A stretch of DNA of 64,000 bases, taken from positions 62,001 to 126,000 of the forward strand of contig NZ_SMRU01000002.1 of the NCBI RefSeq assembly GCF_004354015.1. Reading direction: 5' to 3'. A program made the translations under genes and the position numbers. This DNA is from Arthrobacter terricola. GTDB lineage: Bacteria > Actinomycetota > Actinomycetes > Actinomycetales > Micrococcaceae. The notes under the pieces were generated by a model. The model was not told where the DNA came from. It saw only the letters and a list, made by a program, of their open reading frames with translations, and did not search any database. This document shows, piece after piece, positions 35,680-54,247 of the stretch (positions are counted from its first letter, which is position 1; each line of letters starts with the position of its first letter).

Positions 35680-36482
35680 GACCGGGCCGGAACGTCCATC
35701 AGGTCGGACACGACGATGTCGGCGCCGTGGTCCAGAAGGGCCTGAGTCTGTCCAACCCGGTCCACCCCGATGACCTGGCCGAAGCCACCGGCCCGGCCGG
35801 CCGCCACACCGGCCAGTGAATCCTCAAAGACGGCACATTCGCCCGGTTTCATCCCCAGCGCGCGGGCCGCTGCCAAGTACATGTCCGGTGCAGGCTTGCC
35901 CAACAGATTTTCGCGCCGGGCTGTGAGACCGTCGATGCGCCGGTCAAAGAGGTCCTCAATGTTGGCGGCGGCAAGCACCGCTTGGCAGTTAGCGCTGGAT
36001 GACACGACGGCGCAGCGCAGACCGGCCCGGCGAACCGCATGCACGAACCGCACGGAGCCTTCAAAAACCTCAACGCCGTCATCGCGAATACGACGTAGAA
36101 CAATCTCGTTCTTGGCGTTGCCGAGCCCGAACACAGTCCCGGTGCCGGCTGCATCATCCGGCTGGCCCTCCGGCAGGGAGAGGTGCCGCGAGGCCAGGAA
36201 CGACCGAGTACCGTCCGCACGGGATTTACCATCAACGTAGCGGTCGTAGTCGGCACCGGCGTCGAACGGCACGAAGGGTGTACCGGTGCTCCGTGCGGAC
36301 TCGCGTAGATAGGCATCGAACATCTCTTTCCAAGCGGCGGCGTGGACCCTGGCCGTTCTCGTTAGCACACCGTCCAAATCAAAGAGGCATGCCCGCAAAC
36401 CCTTGTCCAAACCCGCCGTCGTGGCGTCGGCCTGGACCGCAGGGTTCGCCGCGTCGGAACCACTATCCGGTGCCGGTGTCAT
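35676..36482 (-). CDS. HAD-family beta-phosphoglucomutase-like hydrolase
   Basis: 268 residues. ACLFDLDGVLTRTARVHAAA near residue 32 holds the nucleophile and acid Asp. WKEMFDAYL, DYDRYVDGKSRADG, VVSSSANCQAVL, KPAPDMYLAAARALG and VFEDSLAGVAAGRAGG complete the beta-PGM fold. It would isomerise beta-glucose-1-phosphate, the product of the coupled GH65 enzyme. It overlaps the upstream UspA gene and the downstream GH65 gene (ATGA-type joins), so the three are one operon. The N-terminal ~25 residues are a non-conserved extension. Confidence 0.9.
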   Translation of the reverse strand: MTPAPDSGSDAANPAVQADATTAGLDKGLRACLFDLDGVLTRTARVHAAAWKEMFDAYLRESARSTGTPFVPFDAGADYDRYVDGKSRADGTRSFLASRHLSLPEGQPDDAAGTGTVFGLGNAKNEIVLRRIRDDGVEVFEGSVRFVHAVRRAGLRCAVVSSSANCQAVLAAANIEDLFDRRIDGLTARRENLLGKPAPDMYLAAARALGMKPGECAVFEDSLAGVAAGRAGGFGQVIGVDRVGQTQALLDHGADIVVSDLMDVPARS

Positions 36483-37012
36483 GGCCGGAGGCCTTCACGA
36501 CCGGGATCGGGGACGATAACGACCGGGCAGCGGGCGTGGGCCACCACGTGCTGACTCACGGAACCAAGAAGCACACCGGCGAAGCCGCCATGGCCCCGGG
36601 AACCTACAACCAGCATTGCCGCGTCCTTGCCTGTACGAATGAGCGCTTCTGCGGGGTGTCCCTCGACGGCCTCGCACCTGATCTTCACCCCGTGTCGTCC
36701 CGCGGCTTCTTCCCCGATCCTGGTTATCTCGGCGGTCGCTTCATTAGCCAATTGTTTGGCCGTTTCGCCGGACGGACCCATCCGCGGGGTCCATGGGTTC
36801 GGCGCCGGGTAGAATTCGGGAGGTCGCCAGGCAAAGACCGCGTCGATGGTGACGCCGCGTAGCTTCGCCTCCGCGAGTGCCCACTCCAAGGCCGCCAGCG
36901 ATCCCGGAGAACCGTCCACCCCCACGACAATCCCTCCGTCGCCGCGGGAGGCACCGGGAACCCGGACGGGTTCGGATGCGCTCTGATCTACCATTGCTCC
37001 GTTTTCACTCAT
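36479..37012 (-). CDS. universal stress protein (UspA)
   Basis: 177 residues: VVGVDGSPGSLAALEWALAE at residue 29 and VVGSRGHGGFAGVLLGSVSQ near 138 carry the GxxGxxxxxxxxxG(S/T) ATP-binding loop, followed by HARCPVVIVP. It overlaps the HAD gene by four bases and is the first gene of the UspA-HAD-GH65 operon. Upstream lies a decayed DUF488 tail, showing this is the partner of an old DUF488-UspA duplication. Confidence 0.92.
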   Translation of the reverse strand: MSENGAMVDQSASEPVRVPGASRGDGGIVVGVDGSPGSLAALEWALAEAKLRGVTIDAVFAWRPPEFYPAPNPWTPRMGPSGETAKQLANEATAEITRIGEEAAGRHGVKIRCEAVEGHPAEALIRTGKDAAMLVVGSRGHGGFAGVLLGSVSQHVVAHARCPVVIVPDPGREGLRP

Positions 37013-37061
37013 GGTCCCATTCCTTCCAAACGTCCTTCTCCCGTGAGTGCATTCCGTGGTT

Positions 37062-37142
37062 CGTTACCGACGGAACATGACTCCCAAGAAAGGGGCCTCG
37101 CTGTTGTCGGCCTCATTGGTGGCGGTCAACGCGTGCACGTGA
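37062..37142 (-). pseudogene. DUF488 C-terminal remnant
   Basis: The minus-strand frame VHALTATNEADNSEAPFLGV then MFRR-stop parallels the end of the intact DUF488 gene at 37884-38246 (TLLTATKAADISEATVLADM then LRR-stop). It lies 49 bases before a UspA gene, almost the same spacing as the intact pair (52). Only ~26 codons remain. Confidence 0.7.
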
Positions 37143-37297
37143 ACATCCGTGTTGGTCCACATCACGCGAGCTCCTTTCATTGAGAAAGTGACGCACGAGG
37201 TAATCGAAGATCCCGTGTGGTCCTCCGGCAGCCGATCACCTGCTCAACCGCCGGCGGGCATCCACGGCGGCGCCTACCGGCCGGCCTGCCCTCGTCG

Positions 37298-37831
37298 TCA
37301 TGACGGGATGCCGGCCTGGGAAGGATCCGGGATCAGGACGACCGGGCAGCGGGCATGGGCCACGACATGCTGGCTCACAGAGCCCAGCAGGGCACCCACG
37401 AAACCACCGTGGCCGTGGGAACCGACGACCACCATGGCGGCGTCCTTGCCTGTCCGAACGAGTACCTCTGCTGGGTGACCCTCGACGGCCTCCCACGTGA
37501 TAGCCACATTCTGGCCTTCCCCGGCCTCTTTCCCGAGCCGGGTGATCTCGGTGTCGGCGGCTCGGGCCAATATTGTTCCTGAATCACCGGACGGGTCCAC
37601 GCCCAGCCCCCACCCATCGGTGGCACCGTAGTACTGGGGGTATTGCCAGGCCATGACGAGATGGAGACGTACGCCGCGCAGCCGCGCTTCTCCAACCGCC
37701 CAATGCACTGCGGCAAGCGACCCGTCAGATCCATCCACCCCCACAACTATCCTCGACCCGGGCCGGCCCGCCGCGCGGGTGCTGTCGGATTCAGCTACAT
37801 CAGTCGTCGTCGCAGTCCCATTGTCAGTCAT
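37298..37831 (-). CDS. universal stress protein (UspA)
   Basis: 177 residues from ATG 37831 (upstream frame lacks homology). IVVGVDGSDGSLAAVHWAVG near 26 and VVGSHGHGGFVGALLGSVSQ near 142 form the ATP-binding Usp fold, ending VVLIPDPSQ. Closely similar to the UspA at 36479; both follow DUF488 sequence, so they are duplicates. Confidence 0.92.
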   Translation of the reverse strand: MTDNGTATTTDVAESDSTRAAGRPGSRIVVGVDGSDGSLAAVHWAVGEARLRGVRLHLVMAWQYPQYYGATDGWGLGVDPSGDSGTILARAADTEITRLGKEAGEGQNVAITWEAVEGHPAEVLVRTGKDAAMVVVGSHGHGGFVGALLGSVSQHVVAHARCPVVLIPDPSQAGIPS

Positions 37832-37883
37832 CAATCGGTTCTTTCTGGTCGTCGCTTTCCCGGGGTGTGCACGCCGCGGCTCT

Positions 37884-38246
37884 CTACCGGCGGAGCATGT
37901 CTGCCAGGACGGTGGCCTCACTGATGTCGGCAGCCTTGGTGGCCGTGAGCAGCGTCAGCCTATGACCTTTGGCGAGTTCACGCAGGTGGTCAAGGGCCTG
38001 CGCCCGGACGGGGTCTTTGAGTTCGGCCTTGTAGCGCTTGGTGAATTCGCCGAACTTGTCTGGGTCGTGGCCGTACCACTTGCGCAGCTCCGTTGACGGA
38101 GAGACGTCCTTGCACCACTCCTCCAGCGCCGCCTTGGCCTTGGTCATCCCGCGGGGCCAAATATGATCGACCAGGACCCGTGTCCCGTCGTCGTCTTTGA
38201 CTGCCTCATAGACCCGGCGCACCTGTACATCTTTTTTGGTCGACAT
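37884..38246 (-). CDS. DUF488 family protein
   Basis: 120 residues. RVYEAVKDDDGTRVLVDHIW, PRGMTKAKAALEEWCKDV, PSTELRKWYGHDPDKFGEF and LTLLTATKAADISEA are the DUF488 landmarks. The function is not established; members often sit beside stress proteins. It lies 52 bases upstream of a UspA gene on the same strand. A decayed tail of a second copy lies at 37062. Confidence 0.9.
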   Translation of the reverse strand: MSTKKDVQVRRVYEAVKDDDGTRVLVDHIWPRGMTKAKAALEEWCKDVSPSTELRKWYGHDPDKFGEFTKRYKAELKDPVRAQALDHLRELAKGHRLTLLTATKAADISEATVLADMLRR

Positions 38247-38445
38247 CCTTCAGCCTCCTCGCTGACTTGCGCGCCCCCGTGCTGTCCTCATTGGAATAGT
38301 GTCGTCCGATACGACGGCGACTCCATCGGGTTCCTGATCCCGTTTACATTATGCTCCCCTCCGGCCCTTCGAAAACGTGATACGGATCACCAACCCGGCA
38401 CATCGTCGGGGTCCGGCTTTCAGGCTGGTCAGGTACGCTCGTCCC

Positions 38446-39123
38446 ATGAACGCTCTTTCCGGTTTTCGGCCCGCGCACCGGACGTTCTTCGCCCGCGATG
38501 TGCTCGACGTTGCACCGGAGCTTCTTGGCTGCGTCCTTCAACGCACGGATGCCGCCGGGACCGTCGCAATCCGGATTACCGAGGTCGAAGCATACGCCGG
38601 CGAACGGGACCCAGGGGCTCATTCCTACCGTGGCAAGACCAACCGGAACAAAACCATGTTCGGACCCGCGGGCCACATCTACTGCTACTTCACGTACGGG
38701 ATGCATCATGCGATCAATCTCGTCACCGCGCAGCCGGGCCAGCCTTACGGTTGTCTTATTCGGGCAGGCGAGGTCATCGAGGGCGCGCAGCTGGCCCGCA
38801 CCCGGCGTGAAGCGAAACCACGCAAAACCCCGCTTCCCGAACGCGGGTTGGCCTCCGGTCCGGGTTGCGTGGCCCAATGTTTTGCCGCTGACCTGACCAA
38901 TGACGGTGACGACCTCTTCGATGGCCAATGGCGGTTCTTCGTTCCGGTTGACCACACCATAGTGCCCCACGTGACGGGTCCGCGAGTCGGTCTCACCGGG
39001 CCTGGCGGCGACGGAACAGCATTTCCTTGGAGATACTGGATAAAAGATGCACCGTCGGTCTCCACCTACAAACCAGGACGATCCCTGTCGCCGGCCGCCC
39101 GTCTGCTCGGCGCATCCCGGTAG
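38446..39123 (+). CDS. DNA-3-methyladenine glycosylase (AAG/MPG family)
   Basis: 225 residues from ATG 38446; an upstream frame extension is not conserved. ARDVLDVAPELLGCVLQR, ITEVEAYAGERDPGAHSYRG with the catalytic Glu, TMFGPAGHIYCYFTYGMHH and VLIRAGEVIEG-like VIEGAQLAR show the AAG fold. The enzyme excises alkylated bases such as 3-methyladenine from DNA. The nearby Usp genes face the other way, so this gene has its own promoter. Confidence 0.92.
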   Translation: MNALSGFRPAHRTFFARDVLDVAPELLGCVLQRTDAAGTVAIRITEVEAYAGERDPGAHSYRGKTNRNKTMFGPAGHIYCYFTYGMHHAINLVTAQPGQPYGCLIRAGEVIEGAQLARTRREAKPRKTPLPERGLASGPGCVAQCFAADLTNDGDDLFDGQWRFFVPVDHTIVPHVTGPRVGLTGPGGDGTAFPWRYWIKDAPSVSTYKPGRSLSPAARLLGASR

Positions 39124-39477
39124 ACTCCCATCACTCCGGGAGGCCCCGTCTTCGACAAAACGCAGTCCAAGCCGAAAAGAGAACCCGGACTGGTAGCTCC
39201 GACCAAGCGCCCGGCGGCGGCCCGTATGCCTGCGAATCCTTACCGGTATCAGTGCGGGCCGGGGACCCGCTGGACTGTTTTCCGAAGCAATGTCACGCAA
39301 GGTGGGGGGAAACGGCGGTGGCTACACGCGAGACCGGAAAACTGGTCACCCTCAGCGCCCCCCGCGGGACCGTCGCGGTCGGCGACGTAGGCATCTCTTA
39401 GCCTGCCTTCCCCTGAGTTTCAGGAGCCGGCCCGCGGATTCATGGATAGCATCTGCGGCGGGAACGCGGAATCCGGG
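39124..39477. other. intergenic, no recognised gene
   Basis: About 350 bases between the glycosylase gene and the two-domain UspA gene. A frame ending at 39401 (ETGKLVTLSAPRGTVAVGDV) could be a remnant but matches nothing I can name. Confidence 0.4.
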
Positions 39478-40509
39478 TCATTGCGGACGCGTGTGCCGAG
39501 GGTGGACGGGGTCGGGTATGAGGACGACCGGGCAACGGGCATGGGCCACCACATGCTGGCTCACGGAGCCCAGCAACGCCCCGACGAATCCGCCATGGCC
39601 TCGCGATCCCACCACCAGGGCGGCGGCGCCTTCGGCACACTGAACCAGTACCTGAGCGGGGTGTCCCTCGATGGCCTCGCAGCTGATCGTCACGTCGCTG
39701 CCCTTCACCGATTCCTTCGCGAGACGGGTGACTTCGACGGTGGCCGTGGCCATGACCGGGTCGGTATCACCCGATGGGCCGCCCGTGCCGACCGCCCATC
39801 CGTTCGTAGCACCCGGACCCGTAATTCGCTCCCACGCTATTACCGCATGGACGGAAGCTCCGCGTAGCTGGGCCTCGTTGACTGCCCATGCCAAGGCCGC
39901 CCGTGATCCGTCCGACCCGTCCACTCTGACCACAATCCGTCCGAACGGTTCGTGGGCATGGGCTGGTGGGACGGTCCCAGCCGGCACGCTTTCCCCGGCA
40001 GGGGCGGGGATGAGAATGACCGGGCAACTGGCATGGACCACCACGTGCTGGCTCACCGAGCCCAGCAGCACCCCGACGAATCCGCCACTGCCGCGCGAAC
40101 CCACCACGAGGGCCCCGGCACCCTCGGCCGCCCGGACCAGCACCTCTGCCGGGTGCCCCTCCATGGCTTCCCATGTAATCTCCGCGTTCTGACCTTGGCG
40201 GGCCTCCATGCCGAGCCGTTCAAGCTCGGTGTTGGCGGCATTAGCCATCGTCTGGCGGGTATCACCGGAGGAGTCCATCATCATCGTCCACACCGTCGCA
40301 GGCCAGTAGGACTGTGGATGCCGCCAGGCCATCACCATGTGGACGGCGGCCCCGCGCAATTGTGCTTCCGAAACAGCCCACCGCAGGGCGGCCATTGATC
40401 CTTCCGATCCGTCCACTCCGACTACAAGCCTCCCGCCGTGGTCGAGCAGGCGCGCCGCGTCGAGGGTATCCGCCCCCTTCGGATGAGAGAGTGCTCCTTT
40501 TTCGCTCAT
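39478..40509 (-). CDS. two-domain universal stress protein
   Basis: 343 residues with two tandem Usp domains. ATG 40509 follows AAAGGA eight bases away. Domain 1 has VVGVDGSEGSMAALRWAVSE near 24 and VVGSRGSGGFVGVLLGSVSQ near 140. Domain 2 starts with IVVRVDGSDGSRAALAWAVN near 190 and ends with VVGSRGHGGFVGALLGSVSQ. Both ATP-binding loops are complete. Such doubled forms are common in actinobacteria and linked to dormancy and low oxygen. Confidence 0.93.
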   Translation of the reverse strand: MSEKGALSHPKGADTLDAARLLDHGGRLVVGVDGSEGSMAALRWAVSEAQLRGAAVHMVMAWRHPQSYWPATVWTMMMDSSGDTRQTMANAANTELERLGMEARQGQNAEITWEAMEGHPAEVLVRAAEGAGALVVGSRGSGGFVGVLLGSVSQHVVVHASCPVILIPAPAGESVPAGTVPPAHAHEPFGRIVVRVDGSDGSRAALAWAVNEAQLRGASVHAVIAWERITGPGATNGWAVGTGGPSGDTDPVMATATVEVTRLAKESVKGSDVTISCEAIEGHPAQVLVQCAEGAAALVVGSRGHGGFVGALLGSVSQHVVAHARCPVVLIPDPVHPRHTRPQ

Positions 40510-40795
40510 TGTCTTCATCCTTTCGGGAATATTAGCCGCGGAACTGTAGATGTCGCCCGCGGCGGAAAGGGCCTCCGGGGGTGGTACGCCGGCCACGGCT
40601 GACCGTCACGTCGACGGCAGTGACCTCATCCCACTCCTACGTCCCGGCACTGTCAAGGGCATCGATCCGGTGCTAAAGCGGGCGGTAAGTCAAGAGGATG
40701 GGTCAATCTGAGGCCCTTGCGCCAGTGCCAGCGCGCGAGAGTAAGCTGACGGCACAGAAACTGACCAGAGTTCCACACCTGTGATCGAGGTTTCG

Positions 40796-40987
40796 ATGGC
40801 TGCTTACGCTTCCAAGCTGAGCCGTTTCTTCTCCATCGGCGGATATGGATCGGACTCCACCTACCGGGGAGAGCCGACCAGGATGGCCCTGCGGCGTGCC
40901 GACCGGCCGCCCTGGGCAGGCGCGGACCACGTGATCACCCCCCTGACCGAGGGACTGGCGCTGGAAGGCATGGAGGTCACAGGGTGA
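40796..40987 (+). CDS. small hypothetical ORF coupled to zwf
   Basis: 63 residues (FFSIGGYGSDSTYRGEPTRM and PPWAGADHVITPLTEG). Its stop overlaps the zwf GTG start, consistent with translational coupling, but no family is recognised and it could be chance. Confidence 0.35.
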   Translation: MAAYASKLSRFFSIGGYGSDSTYRGEPTRMALRRADRPPWAGADHVITPLTEGLALEGMEVTG

Positions 40988-42468
40988 CGGCGACAGGCCC
41001 GGGCTCCTGGGCCGTCCACTCCCCGCTCCCAGAGGTCCAGCTGCTGATCCTCTTCGGCGCCACCGGGGATCTGGCCAAACGCAAACTGCTCCCGGGTCTG
41101 TTCCACCTGGCCGCCGCGGGCATGATGCCAGCCCGCTACCGCATCATCGGCTCCGGTCTGCCGCATGACGCGCCCGGCACCGATGATTTCCGCACCCATG
41201 TGCGAGCCGCCGTCGACAACTACGGGCGGACCGGACACGGTGCCGGAAGCTGGGACCCATTCGCTGTCAATCTGGACTTCGCTCCGGCTACCCCCACGGA
41301 GCCGCAGGCACTGCGGGACGCCGTCGCCAAGGCCGAGCAGGACCTCGGAGGTCCGGTTCAGCGCCTGATCTACCTGGCCGTCCCGCCGGATGCCTTCGTC
41401 GCAACGGTCCGGATGCTCGGAGTTACGGGCCTGGGCACGGGCGCAAAACTGGTCATCGAGAAACCGTTCGGTCACGACCTCGACTCCGCAAAAGCCCTGA
41501 ACCGGGAGTTGCGCGCCGTGTTCGATGAAGACCGGATCTACCGGATCGACCACTTCCTGGGTAAGGAAGCTGTCCAGAATATCCTCGCGTTCCGCTTCGG
41601 CAATGGTCTGTTTGAGTCGGTCTGGAACGCCGATCACATCGATCATGTCCAGATCGAAGTGCCGGAACGGCTCACCATTGAAGGCCGGGCCGATTTTTAC
41701 GAGCAAACCGGAGCCTTCAGGGATATGGTGGTCACCCATCTGTTCCACCTTCTCGGCTTCCTCGCAATGGAAGCACCTGCGCGCCTGGACGCCGCCTCAC
41801 TGCACGAACAGGCCGAAACCGTCTTCCAGGCGCTGAATCCCGTGGACCCTGCCCGGACCGTGCTAGGCCAATACGACGGCTACACCGCAGAACCCGGCGT
41901 GGCACCGGACTCCACGGTGGAGACCTTCGCCGCCCTCACCGTGGAGATCGACAACCCCCGCTGGGCCGGGGTGCCTTTCCACCTGCGCACCGGAAAAGGG
42001 ATGACTCAAAGCCGGCATACCATCACCCTGACCTTCACCAAAGCCCCGCAAGACCTCTTCGGCCCGGCCGACTGCACCTCGGGCCGGGATGCGCCCAACG
42101 AGCTGATCTTCGAACTCTCGGACCCCGGGTCGATCTCGATCAGCTTTCGCACCAAGGCGCCCGGGGCGGACACCAGACTCGATGACGCGTCCCTGAACTT
42201 CCACTACGCGGACTCTTTCACCGCCGCCCATGGGCTCCTGGGCTACGAACGCCTGCTCCACGACGCCATGACCGGGGACCACACCCTGTTCACCCAGGCC
42301 GGCGGAATTGAACGCCTTTGGGAAATTTCCGCCCCGCTGCTCGCGCACCCGCCCCGGCCACTGCCCTACCGGCAGGGATCCTGGGGACCGGCCGAGACTG
42401 ATCGGCTCATCGCCCCGGCCAGCTGGCACCTTCCGGAGCCCCGGGACGGACGGCCGTGGCAGGGATAA
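40984..42468 (+). CDS. zwf: glucose-6-phosphate dehydrogenase
   Basis: 494 residues from GTG. LFGATGDLAKRKLLPGLFHL near residue 22 binds NADP. RIYRIDHFLGKEAVQNILAF near 183 contains the catalytic His and substrate-binding Lys, and EKPFGHDL precedes it. It oxidises glucose-6-phosphate at entry to the pentose phosphate pathway and supplies NADPH. The nearby GH65/HAD operon can deliver the same substrate. The start overlaps the stop of a small ORF. Confidence 0.95.
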   Translation: MTATGPGSWAVHSPLPEVQLLILFGATGDLAKRKLLPGLFHLAAAGMMPARYRIIGSGLPHDAPGTDDFRTHVRAAVDNYGRTGHGAGSWDPFAVNLDFAPATPTEPQALRDAVAKAEQDLGGPVQRLIYLAVPPDAFVATVRMLGVTGLGTGAKLVIEKPFGHDLDSAKALNRELRAVFDEDRIYRIDHFLGKEAVQNILAFRFGNGLFESVWNADHIDHVQIEVPERLTIEGRADFYEQTGAFRDMVVTHLFHLLGFLAMEAPARLDAASLHEQAETVFQALNPVDPARTVLGQYDGYTAEPGVAPDSTVETFAALTVEIDNPRWAGVPFHLRTGKGMTQSRHTITLTFTKAPQDLFGPADCTSGRDAPNELIFELSDPGSISISFRTKAPGADTRLDDASLNFHYADSFTAAHGLLGYERLLHDAMTGDHTLFTQAGGIERLWEISAPLLAHPPRPLPYRQGSWGPAETDRLIAPASWHLPEPRDGRPWQG

Positions 42469-45669
<3,201 letters not shown>

Positions 45670-45900
45670 TTCTCGTAACCCGGCCGCATCGCTCTGGCGG
45701 TCTGCTGAACGTCCAGACGGATAGTCCTCCCAAAGGGCCTCTTCGGAAACCTCCAGGTCCCAGCCGCAGATCCGCCGGCTGCACCGTATGCTACGCACGC
45801 CAGCTGGTTCCGTTGCGTGTCCACGACGGGAGCGTATTCTTGGGATCAGCCAACAGGTATCCACCCGAACCGCAGTTGCGGCGACGATTGAAGGCACATC

Positions 45901-47697
45901 GTGGCAAAAGACCACAATCATGGCCATCCGAACCGTTCCAGGTCCACAGTCTCCACCGGCGGACCGCAAACACCGGCCGGTTTCCGGGGGGAGCTCTCAC
46001 GAGAAGCGAACACCGTCGTCGATGCTTCCTGGGCCGGGTCCGCCCCGCCGCAATACGGGGTGGCACCGCGGATACGTATCGGGGCCAGTAAGTGGTTCAA
46101 TCTGCTATGGCTGCTGCCGATCGGCTTCGTCCTGCTGATTACCGCCGTTGCCGTCGCCAAGGGGTTGCGCGGAGTACCGGCAGTGGCTGATTTCATCCGG
46201 CAGTACCCCGGCCGGATCGTGCCGCCGGGCGCGGAAGCCCGGGCCGGTTTCCCCGCCTGGATCGGCTGGCAACACTTCTTCAACATGCTGCTCCTGATCC
46301 CGATCATCCGGGCAGGCTGGGCCATCCTCGCCGATCACCCGCGGCTGTACTGGACCCGGCACTCTACCCCGGGCAAGGAATGGTTCCGGATGCAAAAACC
46401 GGTGCCTGCTGACCCGCTGTACACGGCCAAACAGGACTCCATCACGCTCCCCAACGGGGTGGGACTCCCCGGCCGGCGGCACTCGATCGGATTGGCACGC
46501 TGGTGGCACCTCGGGATGGACACGCTCTGGCTGCTCAACGGGCTGATCTTTTACATTCTCATCTTCACCACGGGTCAGTGGCTCCGCCTGGTGCCCACCA
46601 CTTGGGACGTCATCCCCAATGCCCTCTCGATGTCCATCCAGTACGCCTCGCTGAACTGGCCGACCGACGACAGCTGGGTCGCCTACAACAGTCTCCAGGT
46701 CATGGCCTACTTCATCACGGTCTTTATCGCCGCACCGCTGGCGTTCATCACCGGGCTGGGCATGTCCCCGGCATTGTCGACCAAATTCCGTTGGATCAGC
46801 AGAGTCTTCAGCATCCAGGTTGCGCGGTCTCTACATTTCCTGGTCATGGTCTGGTTCTTGCTGTTCATCGTGATGCACGTATCCCTGGTGGTCGCCACCG
46901 AGGCATTACGGAACTTCAACTACATGTACGCGGACCGCAATTCCGGCGACTGGTACGGATTCTGGGTCTTCGCCGCATCCCTGGCCATAATCATCGTGAT
47001 CTGGGTGGGTGTTACCCCGTTCACCTACCGGCATCCGCGAACGGTCCAGCGGATTGGGTTTGCGCTCATCGGCCCGGCGCAACGCCTATTCGAGCACCTC
47101 GACTCCAAACCGGGCCAATACACCGAAAAAGACATTTCCCCGTACATGTGGCACAACGGCAAGTACCCCGAATCCACTGAATACAAAACGCTCCTGGCCA
47201 CAGGCTTCGCCGACTACCGCCTCCGGGTCTCCGGCCTGGTCCAAAACCCCACGGAGCTCGATCTGGCCCAGCTGCGGAACCTGGCACACCATGAGCAGAT
47301 CACCCAGCACTTCTGCATCCAGGGCTGGTCCGGAGTCGCCAAATGGGGCGGGGTATCCATGCAGACCATCATCGACCTGGTTCAGCCCGACCCCGAAGCG
47401 AAATGGGTGATCTTCTACTCCTTCGCGGAAGGATCCGACGGCGGCATCTACTACGACGCCCAGCCAATCGAACAGATGAGCTACCACCTCACCATGCTCG
47501 CCTACGACATGAACAATGCGCCGCTGAGCTATGGTCACGGCGCTCCCTTGCGGCTTCGCAACGAGGTCCAGCTTGGCTTCAAACTCGTCAAATGGATCAA
47601 GGGCATCGAATTCGTCAGCGACTTCTCCCAGGTCGGCGGTGGAGAAGGCGGCTACAACAACGACCACGAGTTCTTCGGTTACCGCCAATCCATCTAA
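45901..47697 (+). CDS. cytochrome b561-like membrane domain fused to sulfite-oxidase-type Moco domain
   Basis: 598 residues from GTG 45901. Residues ~60-390 form several helices (NLLWLLPIGFVLLITAVAVA, WQHFFNMLLLIPII, WWHLGMDTLWLLNGLIFYIL, LHFLVMVWFLLFIVMHVSLV) with haem-ligand-type histidines. Residues ~430-598 are a YedY/sulfite oxidase-like Moco fold: YRLRVSGLVQNPTELDLAQL, then HFCIQGWSGVAKWGGV with the Moco-binding Cys, and GAPLRLRNEVQLGFKLVKWI. It would be a quinone-linked molybdenum oxidoreductase. The two parts are usually separate genes (YedY/YedZ), so fusion is notable. Substrate unknown. Confidence 0.82.
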   Translation: MAKDHNHGHPNRSRSTVSTGGPQTPAGFRGELSREANTVVDASWAGSAPPQYGVAPRIRIGASKWFNLLWLLPIGFVLLITAVAVAKGLRGVPAVADFIRQYPGRIVPPGAEARAGFPAWIGWQHFFNMLLLIPIIRAGWAILADHPRLYWTRHSTPGKEWFRMQKPVPADPLYTAKQDSITLPNGVGLPGRRHSIGLARWWHLGMDTLWLLNGLIFYILIFTTGQWLRLVPTTWDVIPNALSMSIQYASLNWPTDDSWVAYNSLQVMAYFITVFIAAPLAFITGLGMSPALSTKFRWISRVFSIQVARSLHFLVMVWFLLFIVMHVSLVVATEALRNFNYMYADRNSGDWYGFWVFAASLAIIIVIWVGVTPFTYRHPRTVQRIGFALIGPAQRLFEHLDSKPGQYTEKDISPYMWHNGKYPESTEYKTLLATGFADYRLRVSGLVQNPTELDLAQLRNLAHHEQITQHFCIQGWSGVAKWGGVSMQTIIDLVQPDPEAKWVIFYSFAEGSDGGIYYDAQPIEQMSYHLTMLAYDMNNAPLSYGHGAPLRLRNEVQLGFKLVKWIKGIEFVSDFSQVGGGEGGYNNDHEFFGYRQSI

Positions 47698-47841
47698 CCA
47701 CCGGCCCGGGGTACCGCGCAGGCAGACTAGAGGAACGGACCGTGCCGGTTCCTGGCACCGTAAGACAGCTCCAAACCAAAATTCACACAACGGCATCACG
47801 CACCAGTAGGCGCGCGGGCCGTCCAAAGAGGGAGGCCAGCT

Positions 47842-48495
47842 GTGGAAAGCCCAACACCAGCGAATCCGAATAACGTGCAGCGACAGCTGGCCATCTTTGA
47901 CGTTGTCAGACGTGCCCGTGGCAAGAGCCTGCCGCAAATCAAGGCAATGCTGACCAAGGCGTTCACCGAGCGCGGCCTGTCCAGGCAACCAGGCGCCTGG
48001 CTGGATGCCGTGGCATCCGAGGCGGCCTACGGAAAGCCTTATATTGTAGATCTCCCCGCAGCGGTAGCCGCCAACAGCATCGCAGCTTCTCCCGACCCGC
48101 AAGTCGAAGACGACCTGCGCAAGCGCGGTATCCTCCGACGATCCGAAAGCAGCACCGGCAGCCAGCACCCGTCTCCGGCAGCCAGAAAAACAACGGACGA
48201 AGGCGAGGAATCAGGACACCCCGCAACTCCAGCGGCGGAAGCGCGAAACAAACGCGATGCCGCGCACCCTCGTCGCGCTTCAGACACATCCACCCGTACT
48301 GTGTTGCGACTAATTGCAAGCGCCCTCCTCATCGCCTCGGCCGCGACGGCAGTCGGCGTGGCCCTTCGCCAGCGCAGAGGGCGCCCCACTTCGCCTGCCC
48401 TCGCAGTCGGCGCTTGCACGGTGAATAACTTGGAAGCGCACACCGACACGCATGAGGGTCGGTGGCACAATCCGCGGGTACGCGAAGGTCGGTAG
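47842..48495 (+). CDS. hypothetical protein with C-terminal membrane anchor
   Basis: 217 residues from GTG. The N-terminal ~75 residues (RARGKSLPQIKAMLTKAFTE, RGLSRQPGAWLDAVASEAAY, GKPYIVDLP) look helical and conserved in style. A long Ser/Thr/Ala-rich linker follows, then VLRLIASALLIASAATAVGV as a membrane helix and a basic tail. I do not recognise the family. It lies between the Moco fusion gene and the MarR-ClC pair. Confidence 0.6.
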   Translation: MESPTPANPNNVQRQLAIFDVVRRARGKSLPQIKAMLTKAFTERGLSRQPGAWLDAVASEAAYGKPYIVDLPAAVAANSIAASPDPQVEDDLRKRGILRRSESSTGSQHPSPAARKTTDEGEESGHPATPAAEARNKRDAAHPRRASDTSTRTVLRLIASALLIASAATAVGVALRQRRGRPTSPALAVGACTVNNLEAHTDTHEGRWHNPRVREGR

Positions 48496-48625
48496 GCAAC
48501 ACGGTGGTCCCATATCGCCTGGCAAGCGACAAAGAGGGCACCCGACGGGACCAGCACCACCCTCGCGACGGCAATCCAGGACAACGTGCGCGGGCCAAGA
48601 CTAGCGCCTTGTGCCACAGCAAGCC

Positions 48626-48638
48626 TTGCATTGTGCAA
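48626..48638. promoter_or_regulatory. inverted repeat upstream of marR-like gene
   Basis: TTGCA-TTG-TGCAA, 11 bases before the ATG at 48649. This is the size and place of a MarR operator; autoregulation is inferred. Confidence 0.45.
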
Positions 48639-48648
48639 TAGTTGTCGT

Positions 48649-49104
48649 ATGCCAAATCCTCTCGACCGCCACATCGATGCCCTCCAGCGGGCCACGCGTG
48701 ACTTGCTCGCCGTCGCCATGCGCAGTGTGGACGAGGTCACGGACCTTTCCCTGCCGCAGATGCGCATGCTGTTCGCCCTGCACGACCACGGGACGGTGCC
48801 CAGCGGCGCCCTCGCGCACGTCCTTGAAGTCTCCGGATCTTCGGTGACCCGTTTGGCCGACCGGCTGTGCGCGGGAGGGTACGTGCGGCGCTCCGCTTCC
48901 GCCGGAAACCGCAGCCTCGTCCTGCTTTCCCTGACGGATGTCGGCCGCGGTGCCGTCGAAGCCGTCCTCCGCCGGCGCGACGACGAGTTCCGCGAGGCCC
49001 TCGCGCACCTCGACCCGGAGCTGCGGGACCAGCTCGCCGCCGGTCTCACCGCTCTCCATGGGCACCTCTCGGCGGCGTCGCTGAGCCGGGCGGTGGTCGC
49101 GTGA
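48649..49104 (+). CDS. MarR-family regulator
   Basis: 151 residues from ATG 48649. LPQMRMLFALHDHGTVPSGA, LAHVLEVSGSSVTRLADRLC, GGYVRRSASAGNRSLVLLSL form the winged helix with the DxRs-type basic wing. The stop overlaps the GTG start of the ClC gene, so it is coupled to it and probably regulates it together with itself. Confidence 0.88.
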   Translation: MPNPLDRHIDALQRATRDLLAVAMRSVDEVTDLSLPQMRMLFALHDHGTVPSGALAHVLEVSGSSVTRLADRLCAGGYVRRSASAGNRSLVLLSLTDVGRGAVEAVLRRRDDEFREALAHLDPELRDQLAAGLTALHGHLSAASLSRAVVA

Positions 49105-50705
49105 GCACGCACCGCGGCCATCAGTTGGGCGATTTCGCCGTCGACCGGCGGATGCTCCTGGTGGCGGCCCTCGCGATCCCGGTCGGGGCGCTCGGGGCAC
49201 TTGCGGCCTGGGCGCTCTTGGGCCTGATCGGGCTTGCCACAAATCTCTTCTTCTTCGGCCGCCTCTCGACAAGCCTTGTGGCCGTGGGCAGCGGACATCC
49301 GTGGTGGCAAGTGCTCACCTTGCCCGTCGCCGGCGGACTCGTGATTGGCCTCATGGCCCGGTTCGGCTCGGAGAAGATCCGCGGCCATGGAATGCCCGAG
49401 GCCATCGAATCCATCCTGATTGGCGGCAGCCGGATCGCTCCGAAGGTCGCCGTCCTCAAGCCGGTCTCGGCCGCCATCAGCATCGGCTCGGGAGGGCCCT
49501 TCGGTGCCGAAGGGCCCATCATCATGACGGGCGGCGCGATCGGCTCTATTCTCGCCCAGCACCTCCACCTCACCGCGGACGAGCGCAAGACGCTGCTCGT
49601 GGCGGGAGCGGCGTCCGGCATGGCCGCGACGTTCAACTCGCCCCTCGCCGCCGTGTTGCTCGCCGTCGAGCTGCTTTTGTTCGAATGGCGTCCTCGCAGC
49701 TTCATACCCGTGGCTGCCGGGGTCGCGGTCGCGACCGTGGTGCGCGGCGTAATCCTCGGCACCGCACCGATCTTCCCGGTCTCGACCTCCGGATTGCACT
49801 TGACGCCCGGCATCGAGGCGCTGGCCGCCGTCGTCGGCATCTCCGGCGCGATCGTCGCCGCCGGAGCAACCTGGCTCGTGTACCGGGCAGAGGACGCGTT
49901 CTCCCGGCTGCCCATCCACTGGATGTGGTGGCCCGCCATCGGCGGACTCATCATCGGCGCAGGCGGTCTCATCGAACCCCGCGCCCTCGGCGTCGGCTAC
50001 GACGTGATCGATCAACTGCTGACGGGGCACGCGACGACAGGGCTCATCATCGGCATCCTCGTGGTCAAGACACTCATCTGGTCGCTGTCCCTGGGCAGCG
50101 GGACCTCCGGCGGTGTGCTCGCTCCGATCTTCATGATCGGCGCGGCACTCGGCGCAGCGGCGGGCCTCGTTCTGCCGGACGTCATCCCGGGGTTCTGGGC
50201 ATTGCTCGGGCTCACCGCCGTCGTCGGAGGCGTCATGCGCTCGCCCCTCACCGGCGTGATCTTCACTCTCGAGCTGACCAATGCCTGGGCTGTCGCACTC
50301 CCGCTGCTCATCGCCTCGGTGGTTGCCTACGGCGCTTCCGTCCTGTTCCTTCGACGTTCGGTACTCACCGAGAAGATCGCGCGCCGCGGACTCCACCTGA
50401 CCCGCGACTACACGACCGATCCGCTCGAGACGTTCTTCTGCGAGGACGTCATGCGCGCACCGGCCGCTGACCTCACCGAGGCAACGCCAGTGCTCCATCC
50501 GCGGGAAACACTCCGTCACGCCGCATACGTCCTCGCCCGGACCGGCGCGCCCGAAGCTGCGGTAGTGAACGACGACGGCGCGTGCCTTGGGCTCATCGGC
50601 CCATCTGATTTGCTCGTGGCCAGGCTGCACGACCTCACCGAGGCGACCGACCGGGACCGCTCGCTCCGCTACCTCACCCGGGTGGGAATGCAAGGCAGCA
50701 AATGA
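49101..50705 (+). CDS. ClC chloride channel/transporter with CBS-type tail
   Basis: 534 residues from GTG 49101. Selectivity-filter motifs are GHGMPEA (helix D, where E. coli ClcA has GSGIPE), then GSGGPFGAEGP with the gating Glu near residue 136 (GREGP in ClcA), and GTSGGVLAPIFMIGA. The C-terminal ~80 residues (EDVMRAPAADL, LGLIGPSDLLVARL) are a CBS-like pair. It moves Cl- across the membrane, perhaps with H+. The Ser-to-His and Arg-to-Ala changes are seen in a ClC subfamily. Confidence 0.9.
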   Translation: MSTHRGHQLGDFAVDRRMLLVAALAIPVGALGALAAWALLGLIGLATNLFFFGRLSTSLVAVGSGHPWWQVLTLPVAGGLVIGLMARFGSEKIRGHGMPEAIESILIGGSRIAPKVAVLKPVSAAISIGSGGPFGAEGPIIMTGGAIGSILAQHLHLTADERKTLLVAGAASGMAATFNSPLAAVLLAVELLLFEWRPRSFIPVAAGVAVATVVRGVILGTAPIFPVSTSGLHLTPGIEALAAVVGISGAIVAAGATWLVYRAEDAFSRLPIHWMWWPAIGGLIIGAGGLIEPRALGVGYDVIDQLLTGHATTGLIIGILVVKTLIWSLSLGSGTSGGVLAPIFMIGAALGAAAGLVLPDVIPGFWALLGLTAVVGGVMRSPLTGVIFTLELTNAWAVALPLLIASVVAYGASVLFLRRSVLTEKIARRGLHLTRDYTTDPLETFFCEDVMRAPAADLTEATPVLHPRETLRHAAYVLARTGAPEAAVVNDDGACLGLIGPSDLLVARLHDLTEATDRDRSLRYLTRVGMQGSK

Positions 50706-50924
50706 TCGACGGCACCTACGCGAACTTCGCCAGCGGGCTGGCCACCCTGATCATGCGCACCCCTTCCTGCAAACACCCGATTTTGAGAAACCGCAGACGA
50801 CCCGGCCCACCCGGGCCCGGATCGCCCGGAATTCCCCTCAGAACCCCTTCTCACTCAAATAACGCACCACCGGCTTCTGCGGCCGCACGGTTTTGCGGGA
50901 CAGGGTGATGGGAGCCTCGCATAG

Positions 50925-51020
50925 ATGCCCGCACGAAGGACATATGATGCCGCGTTCCATGAGGAATCGGTTCGGCTGGTTTTGTCCTCGAACCGGCCGG
51001 TGAAGCAACTCGCCGAGGAG
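50925..51020 (+). pseudogene. IS3-family OrfA N-terminal fragment
   Basis: MPARRTYDAAFHEESVRLVL then SSNRPVKQLAEE is the start of an IS3 transposase OrfA helix-turn-helix. It stops being homologous after ~32 residues and runs on in frame into the serine recombinase gene. No matching OrfB is present. Confidence 0.75.
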
Positions 51021-51023
51021 ATG

Positions 51024-51938
51024 ATGAGCAGCGGGCCCGGAACCACCGTCCCATCCGACGCCGATGAGATCGAGCGGCACCCGTGCCCCCACTGCCACGT
51101 CCAGCCGGGCTCGCCGTGCCGGTCCCGCTCCGGTGCCGTTGCCTCGACCTACCACACCGGCCGGTTCACCAAAGTCCCCCGCCTGGCGAAGGAGCTGCGT
51201 ATGCCGACACCGGCCGGCCGGGGACCGGGCCAGCCCTGGAGACCGGGCACCCCGCCGCCGGCACCAATCCCCGCCGACACCCCTGGCGCGGACATACGCG
51301 TCGGTTACGCCCGCTGTTCCCACCACCTGACCCAGGAACTCCAGCCCCAACTCGACGCACTGGCCGCGCACGGCATTCCGCGCGAAAAGATCTTCGCCGA
51401 GAAGGTCTCCAGCCACCTGCGGGTGCGTCCGAAGTTCGAAGCCGCGCTGCAGGCAGCCCGGAAGATCAAGGCCCACGCCCCGCACTGCCGGGTCATCTTC
51501 ACCGTCTACGGGATGAAACGACTGGGGCGGGATTCCGCCGAGCTGACCGCGCTGGCCGATCACCTCAGCGCACACGGCATCGCCATGGAGATCCTCGCCG
51601 GGCCACTCACCGGGATCTACGACCCGGCCGGCACCGGCCGGGTGCTGTTCGCGTTCTTCGCCGCGATGGCCGAAACCGAACGCGAGAACATCCGCGAAGC
51701 CACCCTCGAAGGCCTCAACCCGGCCAGCAGGAAAAACCACGGAGGCCGGCCCCCGGTCATTACCGAGGACATGCTTCACACCCTGCTGCGCCGCCGCGCG
51801 AACGGCGAGTCCCTCCACGACATCCGCCTCGACCTGATCATCCCCGCCGGCAAACACAAAGGCCGCAACCCCAGCATGGCCAGCATCTACCGGGCGCTCA
51901 GAGCACGAGAGACGTCTGGCCCACCCGCAAGCCGTTGA
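51024..51938 (+). CDS. serine recombinase with N-terminal zinc motif
   Basis: About 304 residues. ATG 51024 (MSSGPGTTVPSDADEIERHP) is favoured as native start, since the longer frame is an IS3 remnant. A CxxC...C motif, CPHCHVQPGSPCRSRSG, with HTGRF (residues ~17-45) is a small zinc-binding fold of mobile elements. IRVGYARCSHHLTQELQPQL holds the catalytic Ser near residue 100, FAAMAETERENIREATLEGL follows, and a C-terminal HTH (RRRANGESLHDIRL) ends it. It may still be active. The zinc motif is not usual in resolvases. Confidence 0.82.
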   Translation: MSSGPGTTVPSDADEIERHPCPHCHVQPGSPCRSRSGAVASTYHTGRFTKVPRLAKELRMPTPAGRGPGQPWRPGTPPPAPIPADTPGADIRVGYARCSHHLTQELQPQLDALAAHGIPREKIFAEKVSSHLRVRPKFEAALQAARKIKAHAPHCRVIFTVYGMKRLGRDSAELTALADHLSAHGIAMEILAGPLTGIYDPAGTGRVLFAFFAAMAETERENIREATLEGLNPASRKNHGGRPPVITEDMLHTLLRRRANGESLHDIRLDLIIPAGKHKGRNPSMASIYRALRARETSGPPASR

Positions 51939-52371
51939 CCAGACCCACCCCGACGTCGCCACGCACCCGCCGGTCACCTGACGCGACTGAACGGCCGGGT
52001 CACCCCGGACTTTCTCGAGAACAGGAATGCATCTTCTTCAACCAGCGTCCACGCATGAATGAGCTCACTGCTCAGACCGAAACCCATAGGCCAAACTCAA
52101 CCACACCTAGATTGCCCCTCGGGACACGCTCAGGAGCACTGGGCCTCCAAGGCCAGCTGGTCCCCCAATCCGGAACCCAAACCTGAACTCCGCCGATGTC
52201 CGATCCTTCCTCTTCCGGGCCGCCCCGGATCATGGTTGTTTCGAAGCCACCAAGGCAGCTCAGTGGAGTCCTGCGCGAGCGGAACTAATGAGGGCCTTGA
52301 CCGCTCCCCACGACGGGCACAGACTGACACTGCCCAAGGCCATGGGACCGGGGCGCGTGAAAGGACACAAA
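51939..52371. other. intergenic before a UspA gene
   Basis: About 430 bases with no gene or repeat that I can support. AAAGGACACAAA precedes ATG 52372. Confidence 0.4.
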
Positions 52372-52794
52372 ATGGACGCTTCCGGTACATACCTGATCGT
52401 GGTCGGCGTAGACGGTTCCCAACAGTCCCTCTCCGCCCTTCGCTGGGCCGTGGACGAAGCGCGCTTGCGCCGCGGAAAGGTCCGGGTTATCACTGCCTGG
52501 CACTATCCGTCTGTGCCGTCCACGGTGGAAGACAGCGGTACCAACGACTCCTTTCATTCCGCTGAACGTGTCCAGGCGGACGCGCTGAAAACCGTCAACG
52601 CCGAAGGGGTGGACCTCGCGGGATTGCTCGTTCGAGATCTCCCATCCATGGCGCTGCTGGACGCAGCCAAAGACGCGGACCTGCTCATAGTGGGATCCCG
52701 CGGACACGGAGGGTTCTCCGGGCTTCTGCTCGGATCAGTCTCCAGCCAGGTCGCCCACCATGCGCCCTGCCCCGTCCTGATCTTCCGGCACTGA
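52372..52794 (+). CDS. universal stress protein (UspA), single domain
   Basis: 140 residues. LIVVGVDGSQQSLSALRWAV near 10 and IVGSRGHGGFSGLLLGSVSS near 110 with APCPVLIF give a complete single Usp domain with its ATP-binding loop. AGGA upstream of ATG. Only Usp gene of the window on the plus strand. Confidence 0.92.
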   Translation: MDASGTYLIVVGVDGSQQSLSALRWAVDEARLRRGKVRVITAWHYPSVPSTVEDSGTNDSFHSAERVQADALKTVNAEGVDLAGLLVRDLPSMALLDAAKDADLLIVGSRGHGGFSGLLLGSVSSQVAHHAPCPVLIFRH

Positions 52795-52858
52795 TTGTCC
52801 GATCCAGGAGCGGTGCATCTACTCGGAGTCCGTAACCCGCAGGTGTCACCGCTAACGG

Positions 52859-53110
52859 TTACGAGCGCGGGCTCGCATTCGGGGAGCGGCGTACCCACCA
52901 GACCGCGGCGCAGATCTCGATGGCTCCGACCAAGCGTGTCAGCCCGGGCCGACTGGCGAAGAAAGTGACGAGGTCCCGCCACCATTGCGGCCCGCAGATC
53001 CAGGTCTTCATGTGTTCGGCCGGCATGAGCAGAGCCAGTGCCCCGTCACCGATCATTGCCACTGCCGTCAGATCGACGAGTCGGCGCTCGAATGAACTGT
53101 TGTCGTTCAT
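52859..53110 (-). CDS. small membrane protein
   Basis: 83 residues: LVDLTAVAMIGDGALALLMP then a Trp-rich loop (HMKTWICGPQWWRDLV) and LVGAIEICAAVWWVRRSP, with two probable membrane segments. Function unknown. A partial second copy of its C-terminal half lies at 59318-59430. Confidence 0.7.
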   Translation of the reverse strand: MNDNSSFERRLVDLTAVAMIGDGALALLMPAEHMKTWICGPQWWRDLVTFFASRPGLTRLVGAIEICAAVWWVRRSPNASPRS

Positions 53111-53339
53111 TCAGTCAAGCTACCTCCATCGGCAGGCACTGTCTACGCGGTGACCCGACTCCCCGGAATCAGGGCGAGGGCTCCCAAGCATCATCCGGCG
53201 GAGTCTGTGTGAGTGAATCGGTGGGGGGACGCGGATCCTCATGGAGTACCGGGGGCCGGGACCCGGGTCCCGGAACGCCATTTGGCGGACCGCGGGTTCG
53301 CGACCCGGCGGCGCGTTCCGGTAGTCATCGGCCCCGGCT

Positions 53340-53700
53340 GAGCATCGCCGCGGGTGGTTGCGGGAACGGGGTGTTACTGAACTCCGGGGTTGCTGCGTCC
53401 ATGAACCGTCCCCATTGGCCGCCGGCGAGGTCGGCCCCGTCGACCCCTGCATAGTATCTTCCGTTGATGGTGATGTTCGGGTTTTGCCCCATTGCGGGCC
53501 GGTGCCTTTGTAGCTGCCGAACCAGGACGCGGTGGCGATGCTGGCTCTGGCCGGGGAGCAAGTTCCGGAAGCCATGAGGCGCTCGTCCGCCCGGGCCTGT
53601 GCCGACGTGCCCGCTGGCGGCTACCTGGTGCTAGTCGTGGCGGTCCTGCCACCCCGGGCAGACCTGCTGACGGCGCCCACGCAGTCACGTAGATCGGCGC
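53340..53700 (-). pseudogene. penicillin-binding protein C-terminal fragment
   Basis: The minus-strand frames read ASWFGSYKGTGPQWGK, then ITINGRYYAGVDGADLAGGQ and WGRFMDAATP. These are the C-terminal end of bifunctional penicillin-binding proteins (typically NITIDGxxYxxVYGATLAAPIWKxYMDAA). Parts are in different frames, and the transpeptidase domain is absent. A decayed fragment. Confidence 0.6.
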
Positions 53701-53785
53701 ATGGACGTTGCCTTTGTCTTTGACGGTGCCTTGCTGAGCGCGATGGATTGCCTTGCTTCGCCGTCATGTACCAGTGGTTCACGCC

Positions 53786-54247
53786 TCAGGAGGCCCCGGA
53801 CCGGACGACAAGCACCGGACACTGCGCGTGGCTGAGGACCTGGCTGGAAACCGAGCCGAGATGCAGTCCGGGAAATCCGCCGTGCCCGCGGGAGCCGATG
53901 ACGATGAGATCCGCGTCCCGGGCGGCGTCGAGTATCGCCGATGCCGGCGAAACGTTGTGGACAACCTGGCCCGTGGCGGCCGTTCTCTCACCGGCTGCGG
54001 TCTTCAGGGCCTCAGCCTGAAGCGTCTCCGCGATGTGCTGCGGGGAATCTTCGGCCGCGATTTCACCCGCCGCCGTTTCCATCACGGCCGGATACCAGGC
54101 CATCAGAGGCTGGGTCCACGCTGTGACCAGGCGGAGTTGCCCGTCGCGTTGGCGGGCCTCGTCTATCGCCCAGTTCAATGCTGTTTGAGAATGTTCGGAA
54201 CCGTCAAAACCAACCACAATCACGAATGAGCTCTTACTGGTCATCAT
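53786..54247 (-). CDS. universal stress protein (UspA)
   Basis: 153 residues. FVIVVGFDGSEHSQTALNWA near 10, VIGSRGHGGFPGLHLGSVSS near 118 and AQCPVLVVRSG. The ATP-binding loop is complete. AAAGGAAAGAGAA precedes ATG 54247. Divergent from the permease gene at 54374. Confidence 0.92.
   Translation of the reverse strand: MMTSKSSFVIVVGFDGSEHSQTALNWAIDEARQRDGQLRLVTAWTQPLMAWYPAVMETAAGEIAAEDSPQHIAETLQAEALKTAAGERTAATGQVVHNVSPASAILDAARDADLIVIGSRGHGGFPGLHLGSVSSQVLSHAQCPVLVVRSGAS

Follow-up and report, generated by a model that had tools for sequence, protein, structure and literature searches.

The 64,000-nucleotide stretch of Arthrobacter terricola DNA analysed here (the window) carries a gene in which a membrane cytochrome b is joined to a C-terminal Moco-binding domain with the sulfite oxidase fold. 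Its neighbours are an aconitase gene upstream and a gene for a ClC protein downstream, with universal stress genes at a greater distance. The features of the locus are as follows:

42880..45669, + strand: aconitase gene upstream of the fusion, context only (Pfam; aconitase also near 5/61 fused loci)
45901..47697, + strand: fusion gene, six-helix di-haem cytochrome b plus Moco domain, 598 aa, GTG start (open reading frame, Pfam, relatives)
46102..46164, + strand: TM1, residues 68-88, an additional helix that FdnI and the split forms lack (hydropathy; alignment)
46270..46332, + strand: TM2, residues 124-144, core helix 1 (hydropathy; alignment)
46273-46275, + strand: H125, candidate haem ligand in TM2 (conservation; alignment)
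46507..46569, + strand: TM3, residues 203-223, core helix 2 (hydropathy; alignment)
46507-46509, + strand: H203, candidate haem ligand in TM3 (conservation; alignment)
46687..46749, + strand: TM4, residues 263-283, core helix 3 (hydropathy; alignment)
46834..46896, + strand: TM5, residues 312-332, core helix 4 (hydropathy; alignment)
46834-46836, + strand: H312, candidate haem ligand in TM5 (conservation; alignment)
46876-46878, + strand: H326, candidate haem ligand in TM5 (conservation; alignment)
46957..47019, + strand: TM6, residues 353-373, an extra helix and linker to the Moco domain (hydropathy)
47209..47622, + strand: sulfite-oxidase-fold Moco-binding domain, Pfam residues 437-574, predicted cytoplasmic (Pfam, PDB search, structure comparison)
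47314..47316, + strand: Cys472 of the motif C-I-Q-G-W-S, expected to bind Mo (47/47 rows; aligns with the YedY Cys)

The fusion is real. Many genomes have relatives that are 64-92% identical to it from end to end, and such copies rule out a chance fusion or a mis-assembly. Oxidored_molyb (PF00174) matches residues 437-574 (E 2.2e-29, 102.7 bits, cut-off 24), a hydropathy scan gives six hydrophobic 19-residue windows (peaks at 68-86, 126-144, 204-222, 265-283, 313-331 and 353-371), and H125, H203, H312, H326 and C472 are invariant in 47 distinct full-length rows. An earlier note on this DNA had described a multi-helix haem protein with a C-terminal sulfite-oxidase-type Moco domain, and the Pfam match, the six helices and the four invariant histidines bear that out. 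The AlphaFold2 model of the fusion, built on a 65-row alignment, has a mean pLDDT of 71 and a pTM of 0.69, with pLDDT <50 in the active-site loop 471-477. A PDB sequence search (E <0.02) returned matches to the Moco half only. Among the structure-comparison matches listed no single chain spans both halves, an absence that is not evidence in itself.

The membrane half gives only a weak match to Ni_hydr_CYTB (PF01292; residues 123-335, 19.7 bits, below the cut-off of 30.1). Relatives occur that carry the cytochrome part alone, hereafter stand-alone cytochromes; the same cut-off is passed by one of these (L119, 31.4 bits) and by a five-helix fusion (L130, 60.7 bits), and missed by another stand-alone protein (L114, 25.3 bits). 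In structure comparison residues 115-351 resemble E. coli FdnI of formate dehydrogenase N (1kqf_C; 177 residues matched with Z 10.7 and rmsd 3.3) and, with Z 8.6, HyaC, values that may reflect a common arrangement only, as can be the case for helical bundles with Z under about 13. Since a Z of 10.7 is weak on its own, the link to FdnI is carried by the common haem histidines, which occupy the same columns in 118/118 aligned rows including E. coli K-12 FdnI and HyaC. Because these four columns are shared and the fold matches FdnI, the membrane half is assigned as a di-haem cytochrome of the FdnI/HyaC type with one extra helix at each end. No Pfam match to a ferric-reductase-type membrane domain (MsrQ/YedZ) was listed at E 0.1 in the fusion. 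Helix order, the four haem histidines and the fold are common to the fusion and FdnI/HyaC (PF01292), whereas the fusion differs in its opposite predicted orientation, the two extra helices and the fused catalytic domain.

As to the Moco half, residues 401-587 of the model match sulfite dehydrogenase SorA (Z 16.4) and YedY (Z 12.7), and YedY is also the closest solved structure by sequence. By fold it belongs to the sulfite oxidase family, with PF00174 and C472 as the candidate Mo-ligating cysteine. Its best NCBIfam match is the MsrP/YedY equivalog model NF003767, at 66.5 bits against a cut-off of 207; the models of the sulfite dehydrogenases SorA, SorT and SoxC are missed by far (38.9, 24.9 and 40 bits versus cut-offs of 600, 570 and 420), and Pfam gave no Mo-co_dimer match in the fusion. 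The core has a YedY-like C-x-E/Q-x-W motif, and in it the residue two positions after the Mo-ligating cysteine, Gln474, is glutamine in 47/47 actinobacterial six-helix fusions as well as in four proteobacterial and four five-helix fusions. L162 and L163 have Gln too, in the motif C-I-Q-A-W. In YedY and in the seven proteins in which the Moco domain is encoded separately (split proteins, motif C-V/I-E-G-W) this residue is Glu, and the change from E to Q goes along with the predicted location, fused versus split. The N-terminal Tat export of MsrP/YedY has, by sequence, no counterpart in the predicted protein, as its Moco domain is C-terminal and follows six helices, the last of which has no twin basic pair ahead of it. 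MsrP and MsrQ (YedY/YedZ) resemble the fusion in having a Moco core of similar fold and motif, and differ from it in being separate proteins, in Tat export and in the membrane family, the fusion also missing the MsrP cut-off. Judged from its sequence, the Moco half forms a branch of its own next to MsrP/YedY.

The genome of the window (5.57 Mb, 108 contigs) has two Mob_synth_C matches and therefore should make Moco. It has five PF00174 matches, the fusion included. Two of the other matches (L002 and L003) appear by eye to be Moco proteins with several helices as well, in which two arginines precede the final helix and the helices are free of histidine; this resembles a Sec-Tat layout that lacks haem. 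The genome thus seems to hold both styles of multi-helix Moco protein.

At the moment at least 78 distinct related loci can be counted in GTDB species genomes, and 44 of those listed cover the whole fusion in the alignment; these loci, the query and two further genomes make up the 47 distinct full-length rows. In an even draw of Actinomycetota 13/396 genomes gave a match at E <= 1e-80, a count that takes in the genome of the window, five-helix forms and one frameshifted copy, so that the distribution of the fusion is patchy. Among the same-genus genomes listed, 34/36 match the cytochrome part, 4/36 have the six-helix fusion and 1/36 a five-helix fusion. In addition, 20 plasmid records cover at least 80% of the query. 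Their genera are Curtobacterium, Rhodococcus, Corynebacterium, Halobaculum, Natrinema, Paraburkholderia, Variovorax, Methylocystis, Mesorhizobium, Rhizobium and Bradyrhizobium, and 18/20 of the records are annotated as 'molybdopterin-dependent oxidoreductase'. The first helix is missing from the haloarchaeal, the Corynebacterium and some of the actinobacterial copies read. An apparent natural split after the last helix (L153, genome G115) looked like a frameshift inside one gene and was not used. The earlier note held that membership of a common, characterised family would speak against its proposal. The family is indeed recurrent; among the literature matches listed, judged by title and abstract (in a collection without most subscription journals and preprints), neither the fusion, nor a cytoplasmic Moco domain of such kind, nor a cytochrome adjoining ETF genes was described. 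We found no characterisation of this family.

That the two halves are separate proteins elsewhere, as the earlier note stated for the YedY and YedZ functions, agrees with seven plasmid-borne pairs in which they are neighbouring genes (Agrobacterium, two of Rhizobium, Pararhizobium, Sphingomonas, Rahnella and Paraburkholderia). The split cytochrome b has four helices and the four haem histidines of the fusion, and the split Moco proteins are 27-42% identical to the Moco domain of the window. By eye, 7/7 of these Moco proteins show near the N-terminus two basic residues, then a hydrophobic run and a Cys as in a lipobox, for example RRRFLIGG...LSGC, which has the look of a twin-arginine lipoprotein signal and on which the split Moco proteins are read as exported. 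In Rahnella and Paraburkholderia the signals begin some 25-40 residues in, and the Paraburkholderia pair is unannotated, its start having been chosen by us. The split pair and the fusion have in common the two halves in adjoining position, the four haem histidines and a related Moco domain, whereas the pair consists of two proteins, a four-helix cytochrome with FdnI-like charge sign and a signal-bearing Moco protein with the Glu motif. A Streptomyces split pair (L149) is more distant. Plasmids of E. coli, Klebsiella and Rahnella are among those listed with a relative of the split Moco protein (38-43% identity); for the partner cytochrome, the sequence covered was that of Rahnella (L147).

The orientation of these proteins was assessed by comparing the two faces of the membrane for Lys+Arg in the 12 residues on each side of the four core helices. 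The set comprised 47 actinobacterial six-helix, four proteobacterial and four five-helix fusions, 54 stand-alone cytochromes, seven split cytochromes, FdnI and HyaC, with the Streptomyces pair outside it. FdnI has both termini in the cytoplasm, as seen in its crystal structure. The charge sign is normal (FdnI-like) in 9/9 of the split cytochromes, FdnI and HyaC, the orientation generally ascribed to FdnI and HyaC being the reference, and inverted in 109/109 of the others, among them 55/55 fused proteins. Averaged over the 47 fusions, successive segments hold 6.4 (residues 27-65), 1.9, 8.8, 1.2, 3.7, 1.2 and 3.3 Lys+Arg, the last segment being the 20 residues past the final helix, and this alternation fits the expectation for a chain with both termini inside. 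A twin basic pair ahead of the last helix occurs in 1/55 fused rows, the five-helix L130 (RRL), and in none of the 47 actinobacterial and four proteobacterial six-helix fusions. Inverted loop charges together with the lack of a twin basic pair in 54/55 strongly predict that the Moco domain is cytoplasmic and the orientation opposite to that of the exported two-gene relatives, the positive-inside bias being a predictor and not a measurement. The earlier note had left export and a cytoplasmic location side by side; the loop charges and the missing twin basic pair favour the latter and disfavour the former. The inverted orientation would place H203/H312 at the cytoplasmic face, on the Moco side, and H125/H326 at the outer face.

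In the tree of Moco domains (36 rows) a branch with support 96/100 divides off the fused forms, with the split forms adjoining, and both are set apart from YedY, the other proteins of the same genome and the Streptomyces pair with 90/91, which is under the strong-support mark of the tool. The tree of cytochrome cores (45 rows) separates the inverted proteins from the split cytochromes and the E. coli controls (97/92). Within it the stand-alone cytochromes group together (100/100) and are united with the actinobacterial six-helix fusions (100/100), and the proteobacterial six-helix and then the five-helix fusions lie outside these two. The trees are unrooted, several outgroup branches are long, and sampling covered 15 (Moco) and 12 (cytochrome) of the 47 actinobacterial fusions and 12/54 stand-alone cytochromes. 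If the root lies outside the fused clade, the stand-alone cytochromes would fall inside it, and positions among or beside the actinobacterial fusions both fit. The simplest reading of this placement derives the stand-alone cytochrome from a fusion by loss of the Moco domain.

Stand-alone cytochrome genes have an etfA-like gene within three genes in 28/41 loci and both etfA- and etfB-like genes in 27/41, the census being made without four loci where the gene caller missed the gene (L091, L095, L098 and L101). Among the 14 loci that remain, the contig ends close by in five, and either etfA or etfB alone is present in three. Pfam confirmed the ETF domains in the one pair scanned. Near the 61 fused loci etfA was not matched at E 1e-8, and at E 1e-5 the 64-kb window gave a match to neither etfA nor etfB. 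ETF is a soluble cytoplasmic protein that normally gives electrons towards quinone. The linkage of the related stand-alone cytochrome to ETF genes therefore fits, independently of the charges, a docking side of the cytochrome that faces inward. The ETF-adjacent cytochrome likely descends from the fusion by loss of the Moco domain, as far as the trees can tell. Mycobacterial EtfD is described as linking ETF to menaquinone by means of a single b haem and iron-sulfur clusters (PMC13083937). On that account both would be membrane haem proteins leading from cytoplasmic ETF to menaquinone, whereas the stand-alone L114 and L119 are without an iron-sulfur domain (Pfam) and have four haem histidines. 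Given its presumed role, the ETF-adjacent cytochrome would be a different solution from EtfD.

In general, the surroundings of the fusion are mostly not conserved. Neighbours were searched at 61 fused loci, after eight duplicate or partial loci and one split locus (L136) had been dropped, with a crude gene caller for which starts and some genes will be wrong. SLAC1/TDT channels were found near nine loci, universal stress proteins near six, aconitase near five and moaA-like genes near four; DUF488 and DUF2945 (queries from L139) were found at 3/61 loci each, all proteobacterial, and ClC near 2/61, once as a fragment. In a Pfam census of 127 of the 150 listed flanking proteins, from 42 loci, aconitase, ferredoxin-reductase-type flavoproteins, SLAC1, Moco synthesis and Crp-type regulators are each represented by 3-5 proteins and MFS transporters by eight. 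No conserved operon partner that would name the substrate was found across the flanks of the fused loci. The background of SLAC1 is 15 over-cut-off matches in 80 genomes of the phylum, about 0.06 per Mb, so that 0.04 would be expected in 0.65 Mb of flanks versus the nine loci observed. The two rates are not strictly alike, as the loci were searched by tblastn with two channel proteins and the control by Pfam; three of the nine loci are not actinobacterial, and at L135 the channel gene lies in two frames. The window itself has no SLAC1 match at E 1e-5. The yeast sulfite exporter Ssu1 belongs to the SLAC1 channel superfamily. According to literature abstracts, Ssu1 exports sulfite. From this kinship and the channels near the fusions, an anion may be guessed as substrate, with sulfite as the first candidate; the core, which resembles the reductase YedY, and the missing dimer domain call for caution and speak against sulfite oxidation.

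Around the fusion, positions 36482-54247 of the window contain five mutually matching universal-stress-like genes, a small DUF488-like gene (by eye) and genes for glucose-6-phosphate dehydrogenase, aconitase and ClC, and this region looks like a stress island. At L135 in Mesorhizobium, tkt, pgm, DUF488 and a chloride channel fragment surround the fusion copy. Formate dehydrogenase-like genes (by eye) lie upstream of the five-helix fusion in L166 and L167 and were not recognised in the gene lists of the other six five-helix loci. Several of L166, L168, L169, L171, L172 and L173 share a small membrane-like protein of about 150-180 aa; a lipoprotein-like gene was seen in some of these loci, and a small protein with YD(F/L)SIRWG in five loci. 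A Curtobacterium neighbour taken for a nitrate reductase passes no NCBIfam cut-off.

We regard it as probable, by a modest measure, that the fusion is a single-chain quinone-linked molybdoenzyme with its catalytic domain in the cytoplasm. The N-terminus would lie inside, followed by six membrane-spanning helices and the C-terminal Moco domain, also inside. Helices 2-5 would form the FdnI/HyaC-type bundle with two stacked b haems, held by H203/H312 near the cytoplasmic face and by H125/H326 near the outer face, and this bundle would lie the opposite way to FdnI, HyaC and the split Tat-exported version. Electrons would travel between the Mo centre and the menaquinone pool by way of the inner and the outer haem. 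In the likelier direction a small anion, with sulfite as first candidate, would be oxidised in the cytoplasm and the electrons would pass to menaquinone; the reverse, a menaquinol-driven reduction, would be nearly as likely. In Actinobacteria the cytochrome half would later have lost the Moco domain and come to adjoin etfB-etfA. Sequence shows the fusion itself, its conserved histidines, the charge inversion, the branching of the trees and the neighbouring genes; cytoplasmic location, haem binding and pairing, quinone link, substrate and direction are inferred from these. Points against this explanation are the RRL ahead of the last helix in L130, the positive charges behind the last helix, the YedY-like core without a dimer domain, the mostly variable neighbours, the window's lack of etf and SLAC1 matches at E 1e-5 and the low pLDDT of the active-site loop.

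A cytoplasmic menaquinol-dependent reductase of the same anatomy and opposite electron flow is a tentative alternative, possible rather than probable. Quinol would be oxidised at the outer haem and electrons would run through the inner haem to the cytoplasmic Mo centre, where an S- or N-oxide, nitrate or another oxyanion would be reduced, giving a NarGHI-like arm that adds to the proton motive force. The YedY-like motif of the Moco core, the MsrP model as best NCBIfam match, although below its cut-off, and the missing Mo-co_dimer match all suit a reductase, as do nitrogen-oxide genes at single loci (nirK in L142 and a NarK-like transporter, below the model cut-off, in L043). Against these stand the ETF genes beside the related stand-alone cytochrome, with ETF as a donor towards quinone, and the Gln that in 47/47 replaces the Glu of YedY and the seven split proteins.

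Among the literature matches listed, the nearest proteins described are the Sec-Tat dual-targeted haem-Moco proteins of the Sco3746 family (PMC5449189). In these, too, a C-terminal Moco domain comes after membrane helices that bind haem; they have five helices with a twin-arginine motif before the last one and an exported Moco domain, whereas the fusion has six, no such motif and a Moco domain predicted to stay inside. Membership of that family was rejected on the number of helices and the missing twin-arginine motif. The idea that the last helix is nevertheless handed to Tat or flipped, with the Moco domain outside, draws on the Tat-dependent last helix reported for Sco3746, on the exported look of the nearest split relatives of the Moco domain and on the positive charges after the last helix (the 20 residues following TM6 are basic and without acidic residues), which are also a feature of Sec-Tat dual-targeted proteins (PMC5449189). 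We consider it unlikely, as 51/51 six-helix fusions are without a twin basic pair before that helix, which is strongly hydrophobic (mean hydropathy of TM6 2.43), and the core helices are charge-inverted too. The earlier note had likened the two halves to YedZ and YedY, yet a fused YedYZ (MsrPQ) methionine-sulfoxide repair system, favoured by the YedY-like core, is highly improbable and was rejected: the membrane half is of the FdnI/HyaC and not the ferric-reductase type by fold match and aligned histidines, the MsrP model stays far under its cut-off, the Moco half branches apart from YedY and no export signal is seen.

Returning to the cytoplasmic quinone-linked enzyme, the chances of a wider reading are about even. 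One pair of proteins would occur in both orientations, having a common ancestor, and the flipped cytochrome would have shed its Moco domain to become a new ETF:menaquinone oxidoreductase. The flip would have taken the Mo centre and the docking haem into the cytoplasm together, and the oxidoreductase that arose in Actinobacteria would work without iron-sulfur clusters. What is new here is the predicted inverted orientation relative to the exported two-gene relatives and the likely descent of the ETF-adjacent cytochrome. If the orientation is true, this would be a rare case in nature of a complete catalytic unit turned over in the membrane, the cytochrome together with its cofactor domain; the side of substrate and proton uptake would change, and with it the sign of energy coupling. 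The cytochrome b that adjoins ETF genes in Actinobacteria of soil, and that may connect fatty-acid oxidation to menaquinone, would thereby have its origin explained.

A long low-complexity N-terminal extension was seen in a number of the stand-alone cytochromes (L087, L095, L099, L100, L102 and others, also L119, L123 and L133). The sequence R-R-G-L-P-R-V occurs in this extension in two or three copies in 14/54 proteins and once in four, often followed by GGEPWPP (by eye), and the repeat might be a docking or scaffold motif.
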